The translations under genes and the position numbers were made by a program. Positions 2,619 to 38,189 of a stretch of 64,000 bases of DNA are shown in pieces; position 1 is the first letter of the stretch; each line of letters starts with the position of its first letter. The notes beneath the pieces are model-generated. The model saw only the letters and a list, made by a program, of their open reading frames with translations. It made no database searches and was not told the DNA's origin. The DNA is from Clostridia bacterium (GTDB lineage Bacteria; Bacillota; Peptococcia; DRI-13; UBA5745), in contig JAHDMJ010000001.1 in the NCBI GenBank assembly GCA_018436095.1, positions 124,001-188,000 on the forward strand. The letters are read 5' to 3'.

Positions 2619-3533
2619 TTATGATAATGATACACCAGAAGAATTATTTTTATAGAATTCATATAAAAAAATTTCCACTAGCATTTCCTTAATAGAGTAT
2701 TTTGGCAGCCATTTTGTTAACTTATAAAACCTCTGACAATCCATCCCATCGTATAAGGAAATGTCTGAAGGTGTAAATTGCAATTCAACAGAAATATTTT
2801 GCTGTTCTTTTAAAACGCTAACAGCTTCTTGTGCAAGTTCTAAGATTGTAATTGCTCTCTGGGGCCCTAGATTATAAACCTCATCCCATTTTTTATAATT
2901 TGAGCCAATAAATTGAATTATTCCTGCAGCTGCATCCCGAATGTCTAAATATGCGAATAACTGTTTTCCGCCTTCTATTTTAAGTCTCTTCTGGGAGAGA
3001 GCTAGTTTTATGAGTTTATTTGGAAGTCTCTCTTCAAATATCGGGCCAATCAAGCCGGCCAATCTTATGCTAGTAACATTTGTATCAGAATTGGAGTAAG
3101 AAGAAACAATCTGCTCAGTTTTATATTTAGCATGTGCATAAGGGGAATTAGGTTCTGGCCTCATATCCTCATTCCATGGCAACTGCGATATTTGTCCATA
3201 TACACTTCTTGAGGATATATTGATCAAATGTGGTACATTATGGTTCTTAGCTGTATAAAACAATTCCGATGTATAGTTAATACTATCTTGTAAGCATTTT
3301 TCTTCCATGGAACGAGAAAAAGCACAGTGCAAAACTGTATCAATTGGGTAAGAAGACAAGACTTCTTCATATGCTTCCCGTGCCACTATTTTACAAAAAG
3401 GGAAGTGTTTCACTATGAATTCCGGATTGGATGTTAATGCATAAATAATATATTCCTGATGTTCTGACAATTGCTTCATAAGTTCCTGACCCAACATGCC
3501 CCCTGCACCAGTCAATAGTAATCCTCGTTTCAT
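2619..3533 (-). CDS. NAD(P)-dependent epimerase/dehydratase (extended SDR)
   Basis: A 304-residue extended short-chain dehydrogenase. Seen: the N-terminal nucleotide-binding motif LLLTGAGGMLGQ, ISSRSVYG, and the YAHAKYKTE catalytic Tyr-x-x-x-Lys. It could act as a nucleotide-sugar 4-reductase, epimerase or dehydratase. It lies between the aminotransferase and the ATP-grasp gene on the same strand, so its substrate is probably an intermediate of the same glycan. The specific reaction is not recognisable. Confidence 0.82.
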   Translation of the reverse strand: MKRGLLLTGAGGMLGQELMKQLSEHQEYIIYALTSNPEFIVKHFPFCKIVAREAYEEVLSSYPIDTVLHCAFSRSMEEKCLQDSINYTSELFYTAKNHNVPHLINISSRSVYGQISQLPWNEDMRPEPNSPYAHAKYKTEQIVSSYSNSDTNVTSIRLAGLIGPIFEERLPNKLIKLALSQKRLKIEGGKQLFAYLDIRDAAAGIIQFIGSNYKKWDEVYNLGPQRAITILELAQEAVSVLKEQQNISVELQFTPSDISLYDGMDCQRFYKLTKWLPKYSIKEMLVEIFLYEFYKNNSSGVSLS

Positions 3534-25782: not shown

Positions 25783-25856
25783 ATTACCGGCCCCTCTCAG
25801 AGCCATATCAGCTTAAAATATTATTAATGTACCAGGCCGGTGGAAAGGAGAAGATG

Positions 25857-27113
25857 ATGAAAAAAACTTTATCTCAAACCAGAATTTTACCTTATGCCCT
25901 GGCCTCAGGTTTGCTTCTGTCCATTCTGGCCATGGCGCCTGCCTCATTAGTGGCAGCTGCCCCCAGCACCTACACATCAAACTTTATGCTTACCAAGGCT
26001 TCTACCTCTGCAGTAGCTACCGTCACTCCCGACAGTGACGGCATAGAATTTGAGGTGCTGCTGGTTTCGGAAAATGATTCAGCTCTAAGTGGCAGTATTT
26101 ATGTGGCCTCCAGCCGCAGCATAGACAGCTTCTTTTTTCAGGATGCCGGCGGGGCCTGGCTCTCGGTGGGCAGCGATGGCGAAATCCCCTTAAATCAAGT
26201 GGTTGCAGACAGTAAGGCAGGCACTGACGGTACCTTAACTCGAACCCTGCATTTTACCGTAAAGGCTGTATCTACTGTTGCGGGCAATCCGGAATTCGCC
26301 TTAGGACTCCACGCTGACTGCACAAAAGCCTTTGTCCGCCAAACTTCTTTTCCCGACGGCTGCGATCTAAGCCATATTATTCAACAGACCACCATTGGCC
26401 GCCCATCTGCCGAGGAGGATAGTAAAACCAAACTCCAGTTAGCCATCGACGGTGCTGCCAAAAACCTGCCGGCTAACGGCGCGGCTGCTTATACAGTAGT
26501 AGCCTATGCCACCGACAGCGGCAGCGGCGCCAAGCTCAGCGGCAAGGATATTTATTTCAGCATTACCGGCGGCGAAGGGGCTTCCCTATCAGCGGCAACA
26601 GCTACAACGGATAGCGACGGTAAGGCTCAGGTCAGCATAAGCGCTACCAAAGCCGGCAGCTATACCTTGGAGATCCGGGATAGCAGTTCCTCGGCAGCTA
26701 AGGCTTTCCTCACCCTCAACTTCATAGCGCCTTCTCCTAAGCTGGTCTTCACTGTGGACAGTCCTTTTTACACGGTAGATGGTGAGCTGCTTTCTGCTAT
26801 CGCCCCCGCTTTCCTAGAGAAGGATCGGGTTTTCCTCAGCGTCAGAGACATGGGTGATGCTCTTGGCGCCGAGATCATCTGGGATCAAGATAGCCAGACA
26901 GCTACCTTAAAGAAAGAAGACATTACCCTCCAGATTGCTGTAGGGGCCGAAATCCTCTCTCTCAGCAAGGCCGGTATTCATTATGAGGTACTTACCGACG
27001 CCCCTGCTCTGAACAAGGAAGATCGCATATATTTACCTTTCCGGGCCGTACTGGAGGCCTTTGACTACCAGGTAAACTATGATCAAAGCAGGCAGGAAAT
27101 AACCTGTTTATAG
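25857..27113 (+). CDS. Secreted protein with Ig-like and C-terminal stalk domain, small paralogue
   Basis: A 418-residue exported protein. The signal peptide is about residues 10-34. The N-terminal domain (DSDGIEFEVLLVSENDSAL...IYVASSRSIDSFFF) matches the same region of the two large proteins at 29388-31646 and 35826-38189. A middle Ig-like/invasin-type repeat has GKDIYFSITGGEGASLSAATATTDSDGKAQV. The C-terminus is a stalk domain (FLSVRDMGDALGAEIIWD, IYLPFRAVLEAFDYQVNYD). It is a shortened paralogue lacking the central repeats of the large pair. The ATG at 25857 has AAGGAG six bases upstream. Confidence 0.85.
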   Translation: MKKTLSQTRILPYALASGLLLSILAMAPASLVAAAPSTYTSNFMLTKASTSAVATVTPDSDGIEFEVLLVSENDSALSGSIYVASSRSIDSFFFQDAGGAWLSVGSDGEIPLNQVVADSKAGTDGTLTRTLHFTVKAVSTVAGNPEFALGLHADCTKAFVRQTSFPDGCDLSHIIQQTTIGRPSAEEDSKTKLQLAIDGAAKNLPANGAAAYTVVAYATDSGSGAKLSGKDIYFSITGGEGASLSAATATTDSDGKAQVSISATKAGSYTLEIRDSSSSAAKAFLTLNFIAPSPKLVFTVDSPFYTVDGELLSAIAPAFLEKDRVFLSVRDMGDALGAEIIWDQDSQTATLKKEDITLQIAVGAEILSLSKAGIHYEVLTDAPALNKEDRIYLPFRAVLEAFDYQVNYDQSRQEITCL

Positions 27114-29387: not shown

Positions 29388-31646
29388 TTACAGAGTGCAG
29401 ACGATGGAGTTGGTAGCCTGATCGTAAGCAACGGTGTAGTTGAAGGCTTCGAGTACGGCCCGGAAGGGCAGGTATACGCGACCATTCTTGTTCTGAGCAG
29501 GAGCATCAATCTCGATCTCAGAGGTTACGCCGTTCTTCGTCACAGCAATTTTGGAAGCGCCAACGGTTACTTTAACAGTAATACCATCTTTGCTCAAGGA
29601 AGCAGTCTGAGAAGCCTGATCCCATTCAACGGTAGCACCAATGGCGGTACCCATGTCGCGTACGCCCAGGAAGGTGCGGCCACTGTCGATGAAAGAAGGA
29701 GACTCAGAAGCATATACCTTGTTGCCGGATACAAAGGAGGGGCTGCCGATGATGAAGATCAGCTGGCCAGCGCCTTCAGAAGCTTTACCGAAGGAAACAG
29801 TGCAAGCGCCGGTGTAGACTTTGCCAGATTTTGCTGTGCCGGCAGTGCCTGCATCTTCAATAATGATAACCTGGAGACTTACATCGCCTTCCACATTGGA
29901 GCTGACTTTAACTTCGGCTTTGCCTTTAGCAAAATCAGAGGCATCCACGGAGGAAGCGGAAACGATGGAATCCTGAGGTTTGGCAATGATGGTGGCGCTG
30001 GGAGTACCGAAAGCGTCGTTGCCGGTAGCAACCTGCTGGCCATCAACGTCCACTAATTCAATCTTAACGGTGACTTCGCCGCCTACAGCACCAACGCTCT
30101 GAGGAGTCAGTTTCAGGTAGGAAGCAGCTTTCTGAATGGTCAGAACCTGAGTAGCTACCAGGTTTTCGACGGTATCCACAGCCGTCATGGTCAAAACGCC
30201 GGTCTTATCTTCTTTCAGAGTGAAAGAGCCGTCTAATTCAGACATGCCATCAGAGGTCATGAAAGAAGCATCGCTGAGGCTCAGTTTTACTGCACTATTT
30301 ACATCTTTGTAATCTTTCTCTACAGAGTAGCCTTCAGCATCCAGGTACTCGATTTTGGGCATAGGAACCTTAGAATCGGCAGCGTAGCTGCTGGAGCCGT
30401 ATTTCAGCTTCATCTCGGTAACATCGCCCTGCTCTTTGGAGCTGAACTTGTAGGAAACAGAGGAACCGTTGGCCAGGTGAATCTTAACTTCATATTCACC
30501 GTCTTTGCCAAGCTTTGTGGTGTCGATATTGATTCTGCCATAGCCGTCGGCATTGGTGTCATCAATTACAAAACCGTTGTCTTTGGTGAAATTAGAACCG
30601 GAGGGCTTGGTTACAACAGTCTTGGTGACAAGAGCCTTATCAGCAAATTTAACACGATTGCCGTTGGCATCGTAAGCGCTGAATTTGAAAGTTTTGGTGC
30701 CGTTGTTGCGGGCAACTTTCTGGTTATTGTCGCTTTCAGCTTTAATGCTGACAATACCAGGGGTTTTGAAAATAACGTCAACATCGGAGCTTTCACCAGT
30801 TTTGTTACCGATTTTGGCACGAACTTCAATTTTGCCGTCTCTCTGAGAGTAAATTTTAACTTCTGCTTTACCAGAAGCGCTGGTAGTAGCTTTGGAAGCA
30901 GTTAAAGAGGCACCAGTGCCGCTGATGATATTGAACTGAACATCTTTGCCGGCAACAGGGACATTATTGTCTGTGGTTACATAAGCAACCAGAGTATAGG
31001 TGTCTACGTTGTTAGCAGGCTTTTGATTTACAGCCAACAGCATTTGAGCAGGAGGAATTCCATCAACGCTCAAAGTAACTTTGGTAGCAGCGGGAGCGTC
31101 GAACTCAACAGGGTAAAGATTGCCGCCAATGATTTTAGAAATGTCGTCACTGCTAGGTCCTTGATAGTCTCTGCTTAATGCATAATCTCTGGCAGCTGTA
31201 GGCGTTAAGCCAAAAGCAATATTGGTCCTGCCAGCTGCAGTGGAAACGACTTTCAGCTCTAAGGCCCGAGCGGTAGAGCTCGCATCGCCTAAACGGGTGG
31301 TTTTAGCAGCATCGATCTCGACAACTCTTTGTAACACGGTAACTTCAGTGCCCTCTGCCCCAGTTTGTGTGTAGAAAGGAATTTCATACCATTTGCTGTC
31401 CAACTTGTAATAATAGCTGGTAGCAGCGGGCCGGCTGGAAGCGACATAAATAGGGCCGTCACCAACGATAACAACGTCAAACTCTGCGCCGTCGCTATCA
31501 GTAGCAGGGGTTCCTACTGCGGGAACGGTACCTGTAGGAGCATCAATAGAAGAGTTGTAAGCATCGACAGCAAAAGCCGCAAAGGGCACGATGCTGATCA
31601 GAAAAGCAGCCAGTACAACTAAGGCTAAAACTTTCTTAGTTTTCAA
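29388..31646 (-). CDS. Large secreted surface protein with Ig-like repeats and stalk domain (paralogue A)
   Basis: A 752-residue exported protein. Signal peptide about residues 1-26 (MKTKKVLALVVLAAFLISIV). The N-terminal domain has IYVASSRPAATSYYY. Central Ig/invasin-like repeats include GKDVQFNIISGTGASLTASK and VSIKAESDNNQKVARNNG. The C-terminus is a stalk domain (FLGVRDMGTAIGATVEWD, VYLPFRAVLEAFNYTVAYD). The start is TTG behind AAGGAGGG, identical in the inverted paralogue at 35826. The long leader, start, ends and terminator are shared with that gene while the middle is diverged. It looks like an abundant surface or S-layer-like component; no SLH domain is present. Confidence 0.85.
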   Translation of the reverse strand: MKTKKVLALVVLAAFLISIVPFAAFAVDAYNSSIDAPTGTVPAVGTPATDSDGAEFDVVIVGDGPIYVASSRPAATSYYYKLDSKWYEIPFYTQTGAEGTEVTVLQRVVEIDAAKTTRLGDASSTARALELKVVSTAAGRTNIAFGLTPTAARDYALSRDYQGPSSDDISKIIGGNLYPVEFDAPAATKVTLSVDGIPPAQMLLAVNQKPANNVDTYTLVAYVTTDNNVPVAGKDVQFNIISGTGASLTASKATTSASGKAEVKIYSQRDGKIEVRAKIGNKTGESSDVDVIFKTPGIVSIKAESDNNQKVARNNGTKTFKFSAYDANGNRVKFADKALVTKTVVTKPSGSNFTKDNGFVIDDTNADGYGRINIDTTKLGKDGEYEVKIHLANGSSVSYKFSSKEQGDVTEMKLKYGSSSYAADSKVPMPKIEYLDAEGYSVEKDYKDVNSAVKLSLSDASFMTSDGMSELDGSFTLKEDKTGVLTMTAVDTVENLVATQVLTIQKAASYLKLTPQSVGAVGGEVTVKIELVDVDGQQVATGNDAFGTPSATIIAKPQDSIVSASSVDASDFAKGKAEVKVSSNVEGDVSLQVIIIEDAGTAGTAKSGKVYTGACTVSFGKASEGAGQLIFIIGSPSFVSGNKVYASESPSFIDSGRTFLGVRDMGTAIGATVEWDQASQTASLSKDGITVKVTVGASKIAVTKNGVTSEIEIDAPAQNKNGRVYLPFRAVLEAFNYTVAYDQATNSIVCTL

Positions 31647-31913
31647 GAAAAATCCCTCCTTAAATTTGGGGTGCGGGTCTATCCCGCAAGGATATCCATT
31701 TCATGGCGAAGGCCGCCTTTCACGCTAACCGGGCTTCTGCCCGGGGTCAATGGTGAGGAAGAACCGTCGCAATCTTTGGAATCCCATATTATTCTGACTG
31801 AGACCCTCAGCCGGGGGTAGTTCCTGCCGGCAAGATAACCGGTCCGGCAAAACGGCCCGGAACCCAATTAGCCGCTCTGCTTTCTTACTAACGAGTGGCA
31901 ATATCACTCCTTT
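31647..31913 (-). ncRNA. Conserved long 5' leader of surface protein A
   Basis: From AAAGGAGTGATATTG (about 31913) down to the TTG start, the minus strand is nearly identical to 35503-35825 in front of paralogue B, apart from an insertion of about 55 bp in B. It contains the GCCGG/CCGGC, CTGAG-GGT-CTCAG, GGCG/CGCC and GCGGG-ATAGA-CCCGC hairpins. The short open frame in it differs between copies by amino-acid-changing bases and by frame, so a structured untranslated leader is more likely than a peptide. Confidence 0.6.
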
Positions 31914-32070
31914 TAATAAGTGAATTGTCTCTGCGCAAATAAAAAAGCCTCTTGTGGCAGTAGGCAAAGGGTGTCTAAAATAGAACTATTTCAACTTATA
32001 TTTGTGCTTTTTGCGTCTATCACCTATAATAAAATGCGGCGCAGTGCAGATGTGCCGTAATAAAGCATAA
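31914..32070. other. Intergenic spacer between surface protein A leader and symporter
   Basis: Divergent spacer. Outside the conserved leader no similarity to the region before paralogue B is seen. It holds the symporter promoter at 32002-32030. A short GCCT/AGGC hairpin followed by six T on the minus strand (about 31944-31966) is too weak to call a terminator. Confidence 0.5.
32002..32030 (+). promoter_or_regulatory. Promoter of the PutP-like symporter gene
   Basis: TTGTGC (32002-32007), 17-bp spacer, perfect TATAAT (32025-32030), about 55 bp upstream of the start codon. Confidence 0.6.
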
Positions 32071-32085
32071 ATGAGGAGGATGTTG

Positions 32086-33651
32086 ATGGACGCAGGTTCA
32101 ATTCAGGTTTTGCTTGCAATGGCCGCATATATGGCTATCGTTGTTGGGATTGGTATTTTCTTCGCCAGACGGGCAAACCAAAGTTCGGAAAACTATTTTC
32201 TTGGGGGGCGCAGTTTGGGGCCCTGGGTGACAGCGATGAGTGCAGAGGCCTCGGATATGTCGGGCTGGCTGTTGATGGGGTTGCCGGGCGTAGCTTATTG
32301 GCTTGGTCTGGCGGATGCGGCGTGGACGGCCATTGGATTGGCCTTGGGGACGTACATCAACTGGTTGATTGTTTCCAAAAGGCTCCGCCGCTACAGTGAG
32401 AAGGCCGGAAATGCAATCACTCTTCCCGAGTTTTTTTCCAACCGATTCCGGGAAGAAAAAAAGGTGCTGATGACGATTTCAGCTGTCTTTATCTTGATAT
32501 TTTTCACTGTATATGCTTCCAGTTGTCTCGTGACCTGCGGCAAGCTGTTTTCCACACTATTTGGCGCTCCATACGTTATCATGATGATTCTCGGTGCAGT
32601 GTTTGTGCTGGTATACACCATTATCGGTGGTTTTTTGGCCGAAAGCGCCTCGGATTTCATGCAATCCATCGTTATGATAATAGCGCTGGTAATGGTTGTT
32701 TTGGCCGGAACCGCCGCCGCCGGCGGCATAAGCGCCGTTGTAGCCAATGCAAAGAGCATTCCCGGCTTTTTTGAGTTCTTCAATATTGCCAGCCCCTCTC
32801 TGGATGGAAACGGTGTTCAGATGGTGGCAAACAATGCCCCTGTGTTTGGCGGGGCCGGGAGTTATGGCTTTATTTCTATCATTTCCACTCTGGCCTGGGG
32901 CTTGGGTTACTTCGGTATGCCTCAGGTGCTGCTGCGTTTTATGGCCATCCGTAAGGAGAGCGAGCTGACAAGTTCCAGACGTATTGCTATTGTTTGGGTT
33001 GTTATCTCCTTGAGTGTGGCCGTGTTTATCGGAATCGTCGGCAGGGCGTTGTACCCTGTGGCGTTGAGCACTGCGGCAGAGGCTGAAAATGTGTTTATCC
33101 TGCTTTCAACCCGTCTTTTACCGCCCCTTCTGGCCGGTCTTATCATGTCCGGTATTCTGGCTGCGACGATCAGCTCCTCGGATTCCTATTTACTGATTGC
33201 AGCCTCTTCTTTAGCCAAAAATATCTATCAAGGTTTATTAAAAAAGGATGCCAGCGATAAAGAGGTAATGCGGGTTTCCCGTATCACGCTGCTGGTAATT
33301 ACCCTTGTCGCTATTTTGATTGCCCTGGATGAAAAGAGCGTTATTTTTACAATCGTGTCTTTTGCCTGGGCTGGCTTTGGTGCGACCTTCGGCCCTCTGA
33401 TGTTGTTTTCGCTGTTTTGGAAGCGCATTAACCGCGCCGGGGCGATGGCAGGCATGCTGGGCGGCGGTTGCATGGTGTTTTTCTGGAAGCTGGTTATCCG
33501 CCCGCTGGGCGGTGGCTGGAACATTTACGAGCTGCTTCCCGCCTTTCTCTTTTCCTGCGCATTGATCGTGATCGTTTCCTTTGTAACGGAGCCGCCGTCA
33601 AAGGAGCTGCAGGCGGAATTCGACGAGGTTAAAAGGGGCGGTGTGTGCTAA
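32086..33651 (+). CDS. putP: Sodium/proline symporter (SSS family, PutP-like)
   Basis: A 521-residue sodium:solute symporter with about 13 hydrophobic segments. PutP-type features: FLGGRSLGPWVTAMSAEASDMSGWLLMGLPG, with the SA-x-SDMSGW sodium-site region, and GILAATISSSDSYLLIAASSLAKNI. It probably imports proline with sodium. AGGAGG at 32074-32079 supports ATG 32086 over the in-frame ATGs at 32071 and 32080. It lies between the two inverted surface-protein genes and just upstream of the IS110 element; no functional link is evident. Confidence 0.92.
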   Translation: MDAGSIQVLLAMAAYMAIVVGIGIFFARRANQSSENYFLGGRSLGPWVTAMSAEASDMSGWLLMGLPGVAYWLGLADAAWTAIGLALGTYINWLIVSKRLRRYSEKAGNAITLPEFFSNRFREEKKVLMTISAVFILIFFTVYASSCLVTCGKLFSTLFGAPYVIMMILGAVFVLVYTIIGGFLAESASDFMQSIVMIIALVMVVLAGTAAAGGISAVVANAKSIPGFFEFFNIASPSLDGNGVQMVANNAPVFGGAGSYGFISIISTLAWGLGYFGMPQVLLRFMAIRKESELTSSRRIAIVWVVISLSVAVFIGIVGRALYPVALSTAAEAENVFILLSTRLLPPLLAGLIMSGILAATISSSDSYLLIAASSLAKNIYQGLLKKDASDKEVMRVSRITLLVITLVAILIALDEKSVIFTIVSFAWAGFGATFGPLMLFSLFWKRINRAGAMAGMLGGGCMVFFWKLVIRPLGGGWNIYELLPAFLFSCALIVIVSFVTEPPSKELQAEFDEVKRGGVC

Positions 33652-33701: not shown

Positions 33702-33925
33702 GGCTAGGCTACAATAAGGGAGGCAACTGGCTGACGTATCACTCCTTGGGCTACTATGTCCGACTTGAAAGACTTTCAACAACATTTGGTGCAAAAGCTC
33801 GAGAGCCAGTTGGCCTTATTCCATCTCGGGCTGCGCTGCAATAAAGAGAGTAATAAACTGACGCATCAATCCTTGGGCCCCTGTGTCCGTTTGAAAGGCT
33901 GTCAGTCTCTCTTTATTGCAGTCGT
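33702..33925 (+). ncRNA. Candidate IS110 bridge RNA with two tandem stem-loop modules
   Basis: Two related modules follow each other. Module 1: AATAAGG (33713-33719) and CAACTGGCT (33724-33732) pair with AGCCAGTTG (33804-33812) and CCTTATT (33814-33820). Module 2: CTGCAATAAAGAGAG (33836-33850) and ACTGAC (33857-33862) pair with GTCAGT (33901-33906) and CTCTCTTTATTGCAG (33907-33921). The loops share TCCTTGGGC and TTGAAAG with scattered differences, whereas the stems keep pairing with different bases. IS110-group elements encode a bridge RNA with a target loop and a donor loop in this position. Assigning the loops is inference. Confidence 0.6.
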
Positions 33926-34039
33926 CTCTGGGAGCGATAGCGCGGCGGAATGCCAATCCCAGCAGGCCGCCCGATATTTTGAATCGTCAATGAGAAAAAG
34001 TGATTCCCGGTTGCGATTTATGGTATTGGGGGAATAGAA

Positions 34040-35248
34040 ATGAACGCAGTGGGGATTGATGTTTCCAAAGGAAAAAGTATGATAGCTGTTATGGATCCTT
34101 TCCGGGGGGAAATCATCTCGCCTTTTGAGGTGCAGCACAACGATGGCGAACTAAAAAAGCTGGCTAAAAAACTTCTGGATCTAGGCGGTGAGACCCGGGC
34201 AGTCATGGAATACACCGGCAATTATCATGCGGTTATTGCCCGGGTGCTTCATGACGCCGGCATTTATATTTCAGTAGTCAACGCGACGCTGGTACACAAC
34301 TATGGCAACAATAGCCTGCGCCGGGCTAAAACAGACAAGAAGGATGCTCTAAAGCTAGCAAATTACGCCCTTGACCATTGGCCTAATTTGCCTAAATATA
34401 TCCCCGAAGAAGATATCCGTTTGATGCTAAAAAGCTGCTACCGCCAGTATGAGCAGTATTCCAAAATGCGGGCTATGCTGAAGAATAACCTGATTTCTCT
34501 CCTTGACCAGACTTTTCCGGAGGTGAATCGCCTCTTTCATAGCTCGCGCCGGGCCGACGGCAGTGAGAAATGGATTGACTTTGCAGCCGAATTCTGGCAT
34601 TGTGAATGCGTTTGCAACCTCTCCCAGGAGGCTTTTTCCGAACGCTACCGGCGGTGGTGCAAGGATAATGGCTATAATTTCAGCGCAGGCAAGGCTCTGG
34701 ATATTTATACTGCTGCCTGCAATCATATTGGGTTGATGCCCCAAAGAGAAACGGCAAATATTCTGGTTCAACAAGCCATTTCCCAATTGCGGACAAGCTC
34801 TATTGCCCTGGCAACTCTTCAGCAAGAGATGCAAAGCCTTGCGGTTTCTTTGCCGGAATACGATATCGTAATGAAAATGTTCGGCGTGGGGCCGGCTCTG
34901 GGGCCCCAGCTTATGGCTGAAATTGGCGATGTCCGGCGGTTTCATTCTAAAAAAGCTCTGGTGGCTTTTGCTGGTATTGATGCGCCTCCTTATCAATCCG
35001 GTACCATAAATGCCCACAGCCGCAGAATTACAAAGCGAGGCTCTCCATCCCTTCGCCGGACGCTCTTTTTAGTGATGAGTGTTCTTCTGCAAAGAGCACC
35101 TCTTGATGAGCCTGTTTACCAATTTATGAGCAGGAAACGCTCCGAAGGCAAGCCCTATCGCGTGTATATGATGGCCTCTGCCAACAAGTTTCTGCGCATC
35201 TATTATTCCACGGTAAAAGCCTCCCTGGATGGAGGGACTGACATGTGA
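34040..35248 (+). CDS. IS110-family transposase (DEDD recombinase)
   Basis: A 402-residue recombinase, full length for the family. The N-terminal RuvC-like DEDD domain shows GIDVSK (Asp7), VMEYTGNYH (Glu57) and KTDKKDALKLA (Asp99, Asp102). A coiled region follows. The C-terminal Tnp20 domain has MFGVGPALGPQLMAEIG, FAGIDAPPYQSGT with the candidate catalytic Ser near 320, and ITKRGSPSLRRTLF. IS110 enzymes insert through a Ser/DEDD mechanism guided by a bridge RNA. No stop or frameshift interrupts it, so it may be active. Confidence 0.95.
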   Translation: MNAVGIDVSKGKSMIAVMDPFRGEIISPFEVQHNDGELKKLAKKLLDLGGETRAVMEYTGNYHAVIARVLHDAGIYISVVNATLVHNYGNNSLRRAKTDKKDALKLANYALDHWPNLPKYIPEEDIRLMLKSCYRQYEQYSKMRAMLKNNLISLLDQTFPEVNRLFHSSRRADGSEKWIDFAAEFWHCECVCNLSQEAFSERYRRWCKDNGYNFSAGKALDIYTAACNHIGLMPQRETANILVQQAISQLRTSSIALATLQQEMQSLAVSLPEYDIVMKMFGVGPALGPQLMAEIGDVRRFHSKKALVAFAGIDAPPYQSGTINAHSRRITKRGSPSLRRTLFLVMSVLLQRAPLDEPVYQFMSRKRSEGKPYRVYMMASANKFLRIYYSTVKASLDGGTDM

Positions 35249-35502
35249 TTGCCGGTTTCATGAGAATAGAAATGGCTGAAATCCCTTATAAAATATAGAG
35301 ATTTTCTATAACTTCAATGAGAATTTGCAAGAATTTGTTTTCCAGCAACAAAAGGTTTACACTTTGTTCACCGTTTCGGGGCCTGGCCTTATTGACCAGA
35401 AATCAACTTATGCTATAATAACCATAAGGTCGGCCAAAAGCCCCTGATTTTTCCAACTATGTTTTCAGCTTTTTTAAGTTTAAACACATTGAATACTTTC
35501 TG
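35249..35502. other. IS110 right flank and promoter region of surface protein B
   Basis: No gene seen. The first part probably includes the right end of the IS110 element. From about 35392 a good promoter begins. The TTTAAGTTTAAACAC region near 35472-35486 is AT-rich without clear function. Confidence 0.5.
35392..35419 (+). promoter_or_regulatory. Promoter of surface protein B
   Basis: TTGACC (35392-35397), 16-bp spacer, perfect TATAAT (35414-35419). It predicts a transcript start near 35426 and a leader of about 400 nt before the TTG start at 35826. Confidence 0.7.
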
Positions 35503-35825
35503 AAAGGAGTGATATTGCCACTCGTTAGTAAGAAAGCAAAGCGGCTAATTGAGTTCCGGGCCGTTTTGCCGGACCGGTTATCTTGCCGGCAGGAACTACC
35601 CCCGGCTGAGGGTCTCAGTCAGAATAATATGGGATTCCAAAGATTGCGACGGTTCTTCCTCACCATTGACCCCGGGCAGAAGCCATACTTCCGAAGTTTA
35701 ACTAGTTTAACTGGTGAAACTACGGAAGCCGGCAGCCTCCCGGTTAGCGTGAAAGGCGGCCTTCGCCATGAAATGGATATCCTTGCGGGATAGACCCGCA
35801 CCCCAAATTTAAGGAGGGATTTTTC
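35503..35825 (+). ncRNA. Conserved long 5' leader of surface protein B
   Basis: Nearly identical to the leader of paralogue A (31647-31913, opposite strand), with one insertion near 35684-35738 that forms its own hairpin (CTTCCG-AGTTT with AAACT-CGGAAG). Other hairpins are GCCGG/CCGGC, CTGAG-GGT-CTCAG, GGCG/CGCC and GCGGG-ATAGA-CCCGC, the last about 20 bp before the ribosome site AAGGAGGG. AAAGGAG followed by TTG at 35515 could start a short frame ending at 35793, but the frame is not conserved in copy A. An mRNA-stabilising or regulatory leader is the likely role. Confidence 0.6.
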
Positions 35826-38189
35826 TTGAAAACTAAGAAAGTTTTAGCCTTAGTCGTTTTGGCTGCTTTTCTGATCAGCATTGTGCCTTTTGCAGCTTTT
35901 GGTGCTGTTGGAGATGTTGATGTTTACAACTCTGCTGTTGAAGTAACAGAGGATGGCAACAGCGCTGTTTCCGGTACTATAGACGGAGATAGCGACGGTA
36001 ATGAAATGGAAGTCACCTTAGTTAACGCTAAGGATGGCGGAACAATTTACGTTGCTGCTAGCCGCCCTGATGCCACAACCTTCTTCTATGAAAAAGGTGA
36101 TAAGTGGATCAAAATCACTGATAAGGTAGCTAGTACTGATAGTTATGTCATTAATATTGACACAATGGCTATCCCTGTTACTACTGGCTCCACAACCAAA
36201 GTATTAAACTTAAAGGTTGTATCTACAGCCTCCGGTACTACCCAGATCGTTTTTGGCTTAACTGCTACAGCTGCTGATAGCCATGCTCTGAGCAAGGAGT
36301 GGGCATCTGGGTCTGGAGACAATCTTTCCAGAATCATTGACGGGAAACATCCTATCGAATTTGCTGCTGCAAAAGCAGGCGAAATCATCTTGTCTGTGAA
36401 GGATTTCAGCGCAGCTGATTTAGAGAATGTCACCAAACAGAAGCCTGCTAACAATGTGGACGCTTATACTGTGGTCGCTAATGTCACTACCGATGGCGGC
36501 GTTCCTGTAAGCGGTAAAGATGTAACCTTCTCCATCACCAGCGGTACCGGCGCTTCTCTGGCCGCTACCAGGGCTACTACCAATGCTTCTGGTAAAGCTG
36601 AGGTTAAGGTTTATTCCTCCAAAGCCGGCACCATTGAAGTACTTGCCAGAGTCAGCGGCCTTGCTGAGCAGAAGAGTACAGATGCAAATGGCGATCCCAG
36701 GACTAGAACTGACAAAATTAAGCTCACTTTTAGATCTACCGGTATCGTAAGTGTTAAGCCTGAGAGCGATGACAACCAAAAGGTTGCTCGCGAGAGTGAT
36801 GGCTTTAAAGCTTTCCGTTTCAGCTCCTATGATGCTGCCGGTACAAGAATGGATTTCATTAAGCTTTTGAATCTTGACACAAGCGTAACTGGCTGGTCGG
36901 CTAATTCAAGAGAAGATGCTACTGACTACATGAAGGACGATGTTGACATGAAGGCTACCATTGTTACTAAGCCTTCCAGCTCCAACTTAAAAGATGGCGA
37001 TATTGAATTCAGAGTCCATTCCTCCGGCAATATGGAGTTCTTGGTTCCTCATGACAAGTTAAATAGAGATGGCGACTATGAAGTAAGAGTCTATCTGGTT
37101 AATGGCGTTGGCGTATCCTACAAATTCAACGTAAAAGACCAGGGTGATATTACAAAAATGATTTTAAGCTATGGTTCTAAGAGCTACTCTGCTGGCACTG
37201 TTATGCCTCAGCCTGATGTAAAATACCAGGATGCCGAAGGTTATGAGACCAGCAAAGGTCTTGACATGACTAGCAACTCCAATCTCAAGCTTAGCATCAG
37301 CGATGCCTCTTTCATGGATGGCAAAATGGACGACAGGACTGGCCAGTTCAAACTGAAAGAGGATAAGAGTGGTGTCGTTAAGATGACCTTAGTTGACACT
37401 GAGAAAAATCTTGTGGCTACTCAGGATATCACTATTGAGAAGGCCGCTTCCTACTTGAAACTGACTCCTCAGAGTGTTGGTTCTGTAGGCGGCGAAGTTA
37501 CTGTTAAGATTGAACTGGTAGACGTAGATGGCAAATTGGCTGCTTCTGGCGTAGACGCTGAGAGTGCAAATGCCTCTGTTATTGCTAAACCTGAGGGTGC
37601 TATTGCATCTGCTAGCTCTGTTGATACTGCTGACTTCAAAAAGGGTCTAGCCTCTGTTAAGGTAAGCAGTAATGTTGAAGGTGATGTAACTCTGCAGGTG
37701 ATTATCGTTGAGAAAGAGGGCGATGTTCCTAATTCTACTGATAAATTCGGCGGACGTACCTACACCGGTGCAGCTACTGTTTCCTTCGGTAAAGCTTCTG
37801 CTGGCGGCGGACAGCTGATCTTCATTATCGGCGCTCCCTCCTTCGTATCCGGCAACCAGGTTCATGCTGCTGAGTCTCCTTCCTTCATCGAAAATGGCCG
37901 CACCTTCCTGGGCGTACGCGACATGGGTACCTCCATCGGCGCTACCGTTGAATGGGATCAGGCTTCTCAGACTGCTTCCTTGAGCAAAGACGGTATCACT
38001 GTTAAAGTAACCGTTGGCGCTTCCAAAATTGCTGTGACCAAGAACGGCGTAACCTCTGAGATCGAGATCGATGCTCCCGCTCAGAACAAGAATGGCCGCG
38101 TATACCTGCCCTTCCGGGCCGTACTCGAAGCCTTCAACTACACCGTAACCTATGATCAGGCTACTAACTCCATCGTTTGTGCTCTGTAA
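35826..38189 (+). CDS. Large secreted surface protein with Ig-like repeats and stalk domain (paralogue B)
   Basis: A 787-residue exported protein, inverted paralogue of 29388-31646. The signal peptide (MKTKKVLALVVLAAFLISIV) and the C-terminal stalk domain (FLGVRDMGTSIGATVEWD, VYLPFRAVLEAFNYTVTYD) are almost identical to paralogue A. The middle (residues about 30-500) is diverged, with insertions such as the segment around MDFIKLLNLDTSVTGW. Central Ig-like repeat: GKDVTFSITSGTGASLAATRATT. The start is TTG behind AAGGAGGG. High similarity at both ends and divergence in the middle suggests exchange between the copies. Probably a major surface protein. Confidence 0.85.
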   Translation: MKTKKVLALVVLAAFLISIVPFAAFGAVGDVDVYNSAVEVTEDGNSAVSGTIDGDSDGNEMEVTLVNAKDGGTIYVAASRPDATTFFYEKGDKWIKITDKVASTDSYVINIDTMAIPVTTGSTTKVLNLKVVSTASGTTQIVFGLTATAADSHALSKEWASGSGDNLSRIIDGKHPIEFAAAKAGEIILSVKDFSAADLENVTKQKPANNVDAYTVVANVTTDGGVPVSGKDVTFSITSGTGASLAATRATTNASGKAEVKVYSSKAGTIEVLARVSGLAEQKSTDANGDPRTRTDKIKLTFRSTGIVSVKPESDDNQKVARESDGFKAFRFSSYDAAGTRMDFIKLLNLDTSVTGWSANSREDATDYMKDDVDMKATIVTKPSSSNLKDGDIEFRVHSSGNMEFLVPHDKLNRDGDYEVRVYLVNGVGVSYKFNVKDQGDITKMILSYGSKSYSAGTVMPQPDVKYQDAEGYETSKGLDMTSNSNLKLSISDASFMDGKMDDRTGQFKLKEDKSGVVKMTLVDTEKNLVATQDITIEKAASYLKLTPQSVGSVGGEVTVKIELVDVDGKLAASGVDAESANASVIAKPEGAIASASSVDTADFKKGLASVKVSSNVEGDVTLQVIIVEKEGDVPNSTDKFGGRTYTGAATVSFGKASAGGGQLIFIIGAPSFVSGNQVHAAESPSFIENGRTFLGVRDMGTSIGATVEWDQASQTASLSKDGITVKVTVGASKIAVTKNGVTSEIEIDAPAQNKNGRVYLPFRAVLEAFNYTVTYDQATNSIVCAL

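Follow-up and report, generated by a model that had tools for sequence, protein, structure and literature searches.

An IS110-type element with two target-binding loops between inverted surface-protein genes: a candidate RNA-guided inversion switch in a Clostridia bacterium

Phase switches such as the Hin/H2 flagellar switch and the sap inversion of Campylobacter fetus carry their promoter on an invertible segment that lies between alternative genes, and the Hin gene itself lies inside its segment. These systems use a serine recombinase or RecA and fixed sites, and they have no guide RNA. Bridge RNAs are known from mobile elements and comprise one target loop and one donor loop. We describe here a locus in a stretch of 64,000 nucleotides from a Clostridia bacterium (assembly GCA_018436095.1, contig JAHDMJ010000001.1, positions 124,001 to 188,000; "the window" in the following), where an IS110-type recombinase gene and its upstream guide-RNA region lie between two homologous surface-protein genes of opposite orientation. 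With the IS621-type IS110 bridge-RNA elements (Durrant 2024; Hiraizumi 2024) it shares the DEDD_Tnp_IS110 and Transposase_20 domains, the upstream non-coding RNA, a target-binding loop (TBL) with left and right guides (LTG and RTG) and the CT core. In contrast to these elements, it has two TBLs, no recognisable donor-binding loop (DBL) or ends, and exists as a single fixed copy between two inverted target sites. As both the donor loop and the ends, which define an ordinary IS110 bridge-RNA element, failed to be recognised, it is apparently a derived, domesticated variant of IS110 and not an ordinary member. That we are dealing with a domesticated two-TBL element is very probable. More tentatively, and with somewhat less than even confidence, we propose a natural RNA-guided DNA invertase, in which a donor-less bridge RNA with two target loops flips a promoter between surface-protein genes (RNA-guided phase variation).

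The family to which the element belongs is an ordinary one. Relatives were collected from 62 loci in other genomes, most of them with recombinases of about 75% identity. Thirty-one unique relatives have one TBL, one DBL and conserved ends, and the complete ones share a non-coding 5' layout of left end (CT-ATTACAATAAATTTGG), 5' stem-loop, TBL and DBL, followed by the gene and the right end (TTAGCAGGT-CT). The variable parts of their TBL are guides: the LTG has the sequence of the left flank, and the right flank corresponds to the RTG in reverse complement. Compared with the element's own flank, the LTG matches at 192/288 positions (127±6.5 when shuffled) and the RTG at 131/174 (78±5.2), and in both cases 0 of 5000 shuffles scored as high. 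A natural compensatory change in the donor guide is found in L058 (positions 2751-3000; L059 is listed alongside), where a left end CTACT goes with CAGTAG in the DBL, while the others combine CTATT with CAATAG. Guide-flank matches and donor co-variation together show that the family encodes a bridge RNA of the type already published (PMC11208160). Hence, an earlier note, written from the DNA letters only, was right to propose a bridge RNA upstream of the IS110 recombinase, as loop-flank complementarity across relatives bears out. The two tandem hairpin modules on which it built are present with all quoted motifs and stems. Its argument from compensatory change has to be replaced, however: comparing module 1 with module 2 is a comparison of paralogues and not covariation within a module. 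True covariation exists in the TBL of the relatives, where 4 of 27 pairs changed on both sides and few are broken. In this IS110 subgroup (left flanks of L003-L056) the TBL guides insertion mostly into a reversed Shine-Dalgarno sequence (CACCTCCTTTC) just 5' of start codons. The recombinase frames of L053, L058 and L059 look frameshifted in mid-gene, with RNA and ends intact, and a viral collection contained two relatives, both of the standard type. In the IS1111/seekRNA group, which has subterminal inverted repeats, the guide is usually located downstream, whereas here it is upstream, as in most IS110-type elements.

The window element departs from this scheme. Covariance models of TBL and DBL were built from 26 relatives, leaving out the window and its closest relative, L002, which comes from a sister genome (G004) of a different species of the same genus. 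The TBL model matches the window twice, at 33835-33923 and 33708-33799 (scores in Table 1), and L002 twice as well (58.7 and 30.6 bits). Each of five other matching loci has exactly one plus-strand match, and L059 has no match to the TBL model. The DBL model reaches only 13.1 bits in the window (Table 1) and no match in L002, although it finds the DBL in L058 (46.8 bits) and L067 (33.2 bits), whose recombinases are only 53% and 45% identical. Similarly, motifs for the left and right ends (LE and RE) score no better in the window and L002 than in shuffled sequence, while in the controls both ends are kept in L036, L053 and L058 and the right end in L067. Thus, the element of the window combines two target loops with the lack of a recognisable DBL and of recognisable ends, and L002 deviates from the relatives in the same way. 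The two modules had been taken as a target loop plus a donor loop; both are target loops, module 2 as donor loop being ruled out by the TBL and DBL models. TBL1, the first module, is formed by the arms 33713-33732 (AATAAGGgaggCAACTGGCT) and 33804-33820 (AGCCAGTTGgCCTTATT), TBL2 by the arms 33836-33850 and 33907-33921 with an inner stem 33857-33862/33901-33906. Folding of the 311-nt region gives z = -4.4 relative to shuffled sequence, and a search of the window against Rfam returned no match. A module duplication, which the earlier note had considered, is supported. It is not recent, because both copies are present in the sister species and therefore predate the split of the two species (recombinase dS about 1.2). 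A nested insertion of one element into the TBL of another, with a CT suitably placed in the junction 33771-33789, is not needed as an explanation, since beyond the 3' end there is nothing left of a first element.

Several observations indicate that the element is immobile and maintained. It occurs once in the window genome (G000) and once in the sister genome, apparently at the same locus, so that neither several copies nor differing insertion sites are found. The recombinase has the DEDD RuvC-like domain and the Tnp domain with the catalytic Ser; its D, E and D-D motifs are intact in the alignment, and its SG motif aligns with that of IS621, which with ISCro4 (PDB entries 8wt6 and 9t56) provides the only sequence relatives among solved structures. 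Between window and L002 its dN/dS is 0.049 at dS 1.21 (a neighbouring WecG-like gene has dS 0.68), which indicates strong purifying selection. Within TBL1, 62 of 66 positions are identical over the stretch 33706-33771 (P about 3e-12 at a neutral divergence of 45%, a value chosen near the observed synonymous differences), and all four guides, LTG1, RTG1, LTG2 and RTG2, are unchanged. Window and L002 also have in common the right flank, which is the promoter region of the right surface-protein gene, and the left site. As an immobile, unused insertion sequence would not show a low dN/dS together with unchanged guides, we conclude that the element is kept by selection.

Table 1. Features of the locus (positions in the window).
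Feature	Position	Strand	Remarks
Left surface-protein gene	29388..31646	-	Big_1 + Cu_amine_oxidN1 domain matches
Left leader, inverted-repeat arm	31732..31921	-	190 nt, 97% complementary to 35495-35684
Site L	31901..31918	+	ATATCACTC-CT-TTTAATA, core 31910-31911; TBL1 complement
Sodium:solute symporter gene	32071..33651	+	between the sites; not at this position in L002
TBL1	33713..33820	+	TBL covariance model 38.5 bits, E 2e-7
LTG1	33736..33746	+	GTATCACTC-CT; guide to left half of site; 11/11 pairing with both flanking sites, one G-T wobble
RTG1	33764..33771	+	CTTGAAAG; 7 contiguous pairs with either site, one wobble
SL1b, second 5'-stem-loop-like segment	33796..33832	+	stem AGCTCGAGA/TCTCGGGCT; overlaps and competes with TBL1 3' arm
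TBL2	33836..33921	+	TBL covariance model 60.1 bits, E 5e-13
LTG2	33863..33873	+	GCATCAATC-CT; 9/11 pairing with flanking sites, one wobble; identical in L002
RTG2	33890..33897	+	TTTGAAAG; contiguous pairs: 8 with site R, 7 with site L, one wobble each; identical in L002
Decayed DBL region	33922..33986	+	DBL model only 13.1 bits, E 0.62
IS110-type DEDD/Ser recombinase	34040..35248	+	402 aa; Pfam PF01548 + PF02371
Strong promoter	35392..35419	+	TTGACC-N16-TATAAT (TGn), 11/12 consensus, same in L002; between sites, faces right surface-protein gene
Right leader, inverted-repeat arm	35495..35684	+	pairs with left leader
Site R	35498..35515	-	ATATCACTC-CT-TTCAGAA, core 35505-35506; inverted relative to site L; TBL1 complement
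Right surface-protein gene	35826..38189	+	Big_1 + Cu_amine_oxidN1 domain matches

What the guides match points to a probable function. The earlier reading was correct in kind but missed the main point, as it overlooked the surface-protein genes in inverted orientation and the sites that go with them. The 12-mer TATCACTCCTTT occurs three times in G000, two of the copies being sites L and R, and twice in G004, where both are the inverted sites flanking the element. Both sites lie at the edge of a long inverted repeat shared by the leaders of the surface-protein genes, in which a first stretch of 190 nt (97%) is followed by 174 nt at 94%, and the genes share a further 431-nt C-terminal repeat. 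In both leaders the repeat ends at AAAGGAGTGATAT, no more than 3 bases past a CT core that is flanked by an exact TBL1 target. The two leaders of one genome resemble each other more closely (97.7% and 95.6%) than leaders of different species do (about 92%), and therefore sequence is exchanged between the two ends. A single strong promoter is located inside the segment and directed towards the right gene, and none directed towards the left gene was found. The idea of an insulating terminator for the left gene was dropped, as its stems of 3-4 pairs are too weak. About 110 nt around the promoter (35345-35450) are fully identical between the species despite a recombinase dS of about 1.2, and this stretch is thus more conserved than coding DNA and contains GC-rich inverted repeats (GGGGC..GGCC/GGCC..GCCCC). 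The leader (35503-35684 and 31732-31921) contains a short open frame (TTG CCA CTC GTT AGT AAG AAA ...) and a ribosome-binding site of its own, a dyad GAGTG-n7-CACTC lies beside the recombination core, and about 300 nt separate leader and surface-gene start. A further surface-protein paralogue is encoded upstream on the plus strand (25827-27113); it is similar at the N- and C-terminus and lacks the shared leader.

This arrangement recalls Piv, the invertase of Moraxella: in both cases a DEDD/SG recombinase related to IS110 transposases is placed with a segment next to surface genes, flanked here by inverted sites, and the segment is invertible in Piv and predicted to be so here. Proteins of the Piv/IS492/IS621 branch have 315-330 aa (PMC11187229), compared to 402 aa here, and strictly speaking the recombinase is thus not a Piv; it also differs in its conserved guide RNA with two TBLs. 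With the cwpV switch of Clostridium difficile (PMC2784873) the locus shares inverted repeats 5' of a cell-wall protein gene and, putatively, inversion driven by a recombinase. That switch relies on another recombinase, a 195-bp segment without promoter and no guide RNA. The flagellar and sap switches resemble the locus in the promoter placed inside the segment between alternative genes, and Hin also in the recombinase gene being part of it; a guide RNA is predicted only here.

We propose the following course of events. An IS110 element with a bridge RNA directed against a reversed Shine-Dalgarno sequence would have entered the ribosome-binding site of a surface-protein leader. Subsequently, its ends and donor loop would have been lost and a second target loop gained through duplication of the 5'-stem-loop/TBL unit. 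The recombinase, loaded with TBL1 and TBL2, would bind two copies of ATATCACTC-CT-TTnAn that lie in opposite orientation at the leader starts, and recombination at the CT core would invert the intervening segment with its recombinase gene, guide RNA and promoter. Inversion would join the promoter to one surface-protein gene and cut off the other, a Hin/Piv-like phase switch guided by RNA. Expression of the RNA, synapsis and recombination of two targets, inversion and a resulting switch in expression are what this model predicts.

Several points weigh against such a switch. The main one comes from IS621, in which recombination between two targets is impossible in vitro for want of a stem-loop contact between TBL and RuvC (PMC11208158); the system described here would therefore need another contact. 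TBL2 fits the sites less well than TBL1 (9/11 for the LTG, with one wobble). In the window the TBL1 hairpin is not the fold of lowest energy, as a rival hairpin (33796-33804/33824-33832) is better by about 4 kcal/mol, while in L002 the two are about equal in energy; the competing SL1b stem is kept there as AGCCCGAGA/TCTCGGGCT. The symporter gene separates site L from the guide region in the window, and the two-TBL form is known from two species only. No flipped orientation was seen, with the orientation in G004 left unresolved because the contig ends in a 141-nt inverted repeat. Trees of the surface-protein genes do not reveal a past inversion, since there is no clear left/right orthology.

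An unlikely alternative, although it survives best, is a still-mobile IS110 with diverged ends, in which the second TBL arose by duplication and provides spare guides, the element is an old insertion at site L, and site R is an uncut target in the homologous gene. The TBL1 guide matches the left flank of L002 exactly as in an ordinary insertion, and in L002 the spacing between site L and the 5' stem-loop is the usual one. However, neither LE/RE motifs nor a DBL are recognisable in either species, although relatives at 45-53% identity keep them. The single copy per genome and the right flank common to both species also speak against it, and a dN/dS of 0.05 and the unchanged guides would be unexpected for an old unused insertion. 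Slightly less probable again is a scenario in which the long leader repeat, which could invert or convert by ordinary homologous recombination alone, lets RecA-type recombination switch or homogenise the surface-protein genes, with the IS110 element as bystander or kept for another role, e.g. regulation. The length and identity of the inverted repeats, the C-terminal repeat and the concerted evolution of the leaders are in line with this, but it leaves unexplained why recombinase and both guides are conserved, why guides and sites match at either edge of the repeat and why homology stops beside the core. Least likely is that TBL2 acts as surrogate donor loop for a site other than L or R, the system inserting or excising something else: TBL2 does stand second, where a DBL is expected, and in both species two positions of LTG2 deviate from the sites, yet RTG2 fits site R best, and a genome-wide search in both genomes gave no clear or shared candidate for a separate TBL2 target.

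We therefore return to an inversion switch of surface proteins by a domesticated, immobile IS110 element as the best explanation, with about an even chance of being correct. A domesticated bridge RNA with two target loops was not found in the open-access literature searched. If the proposed switch is real, it is a case of RNA-guided recombination domesticated to regulate genes. It would also mean that the block to target-target recombination can be overcome, which would bear directly on programmable inversion tools.
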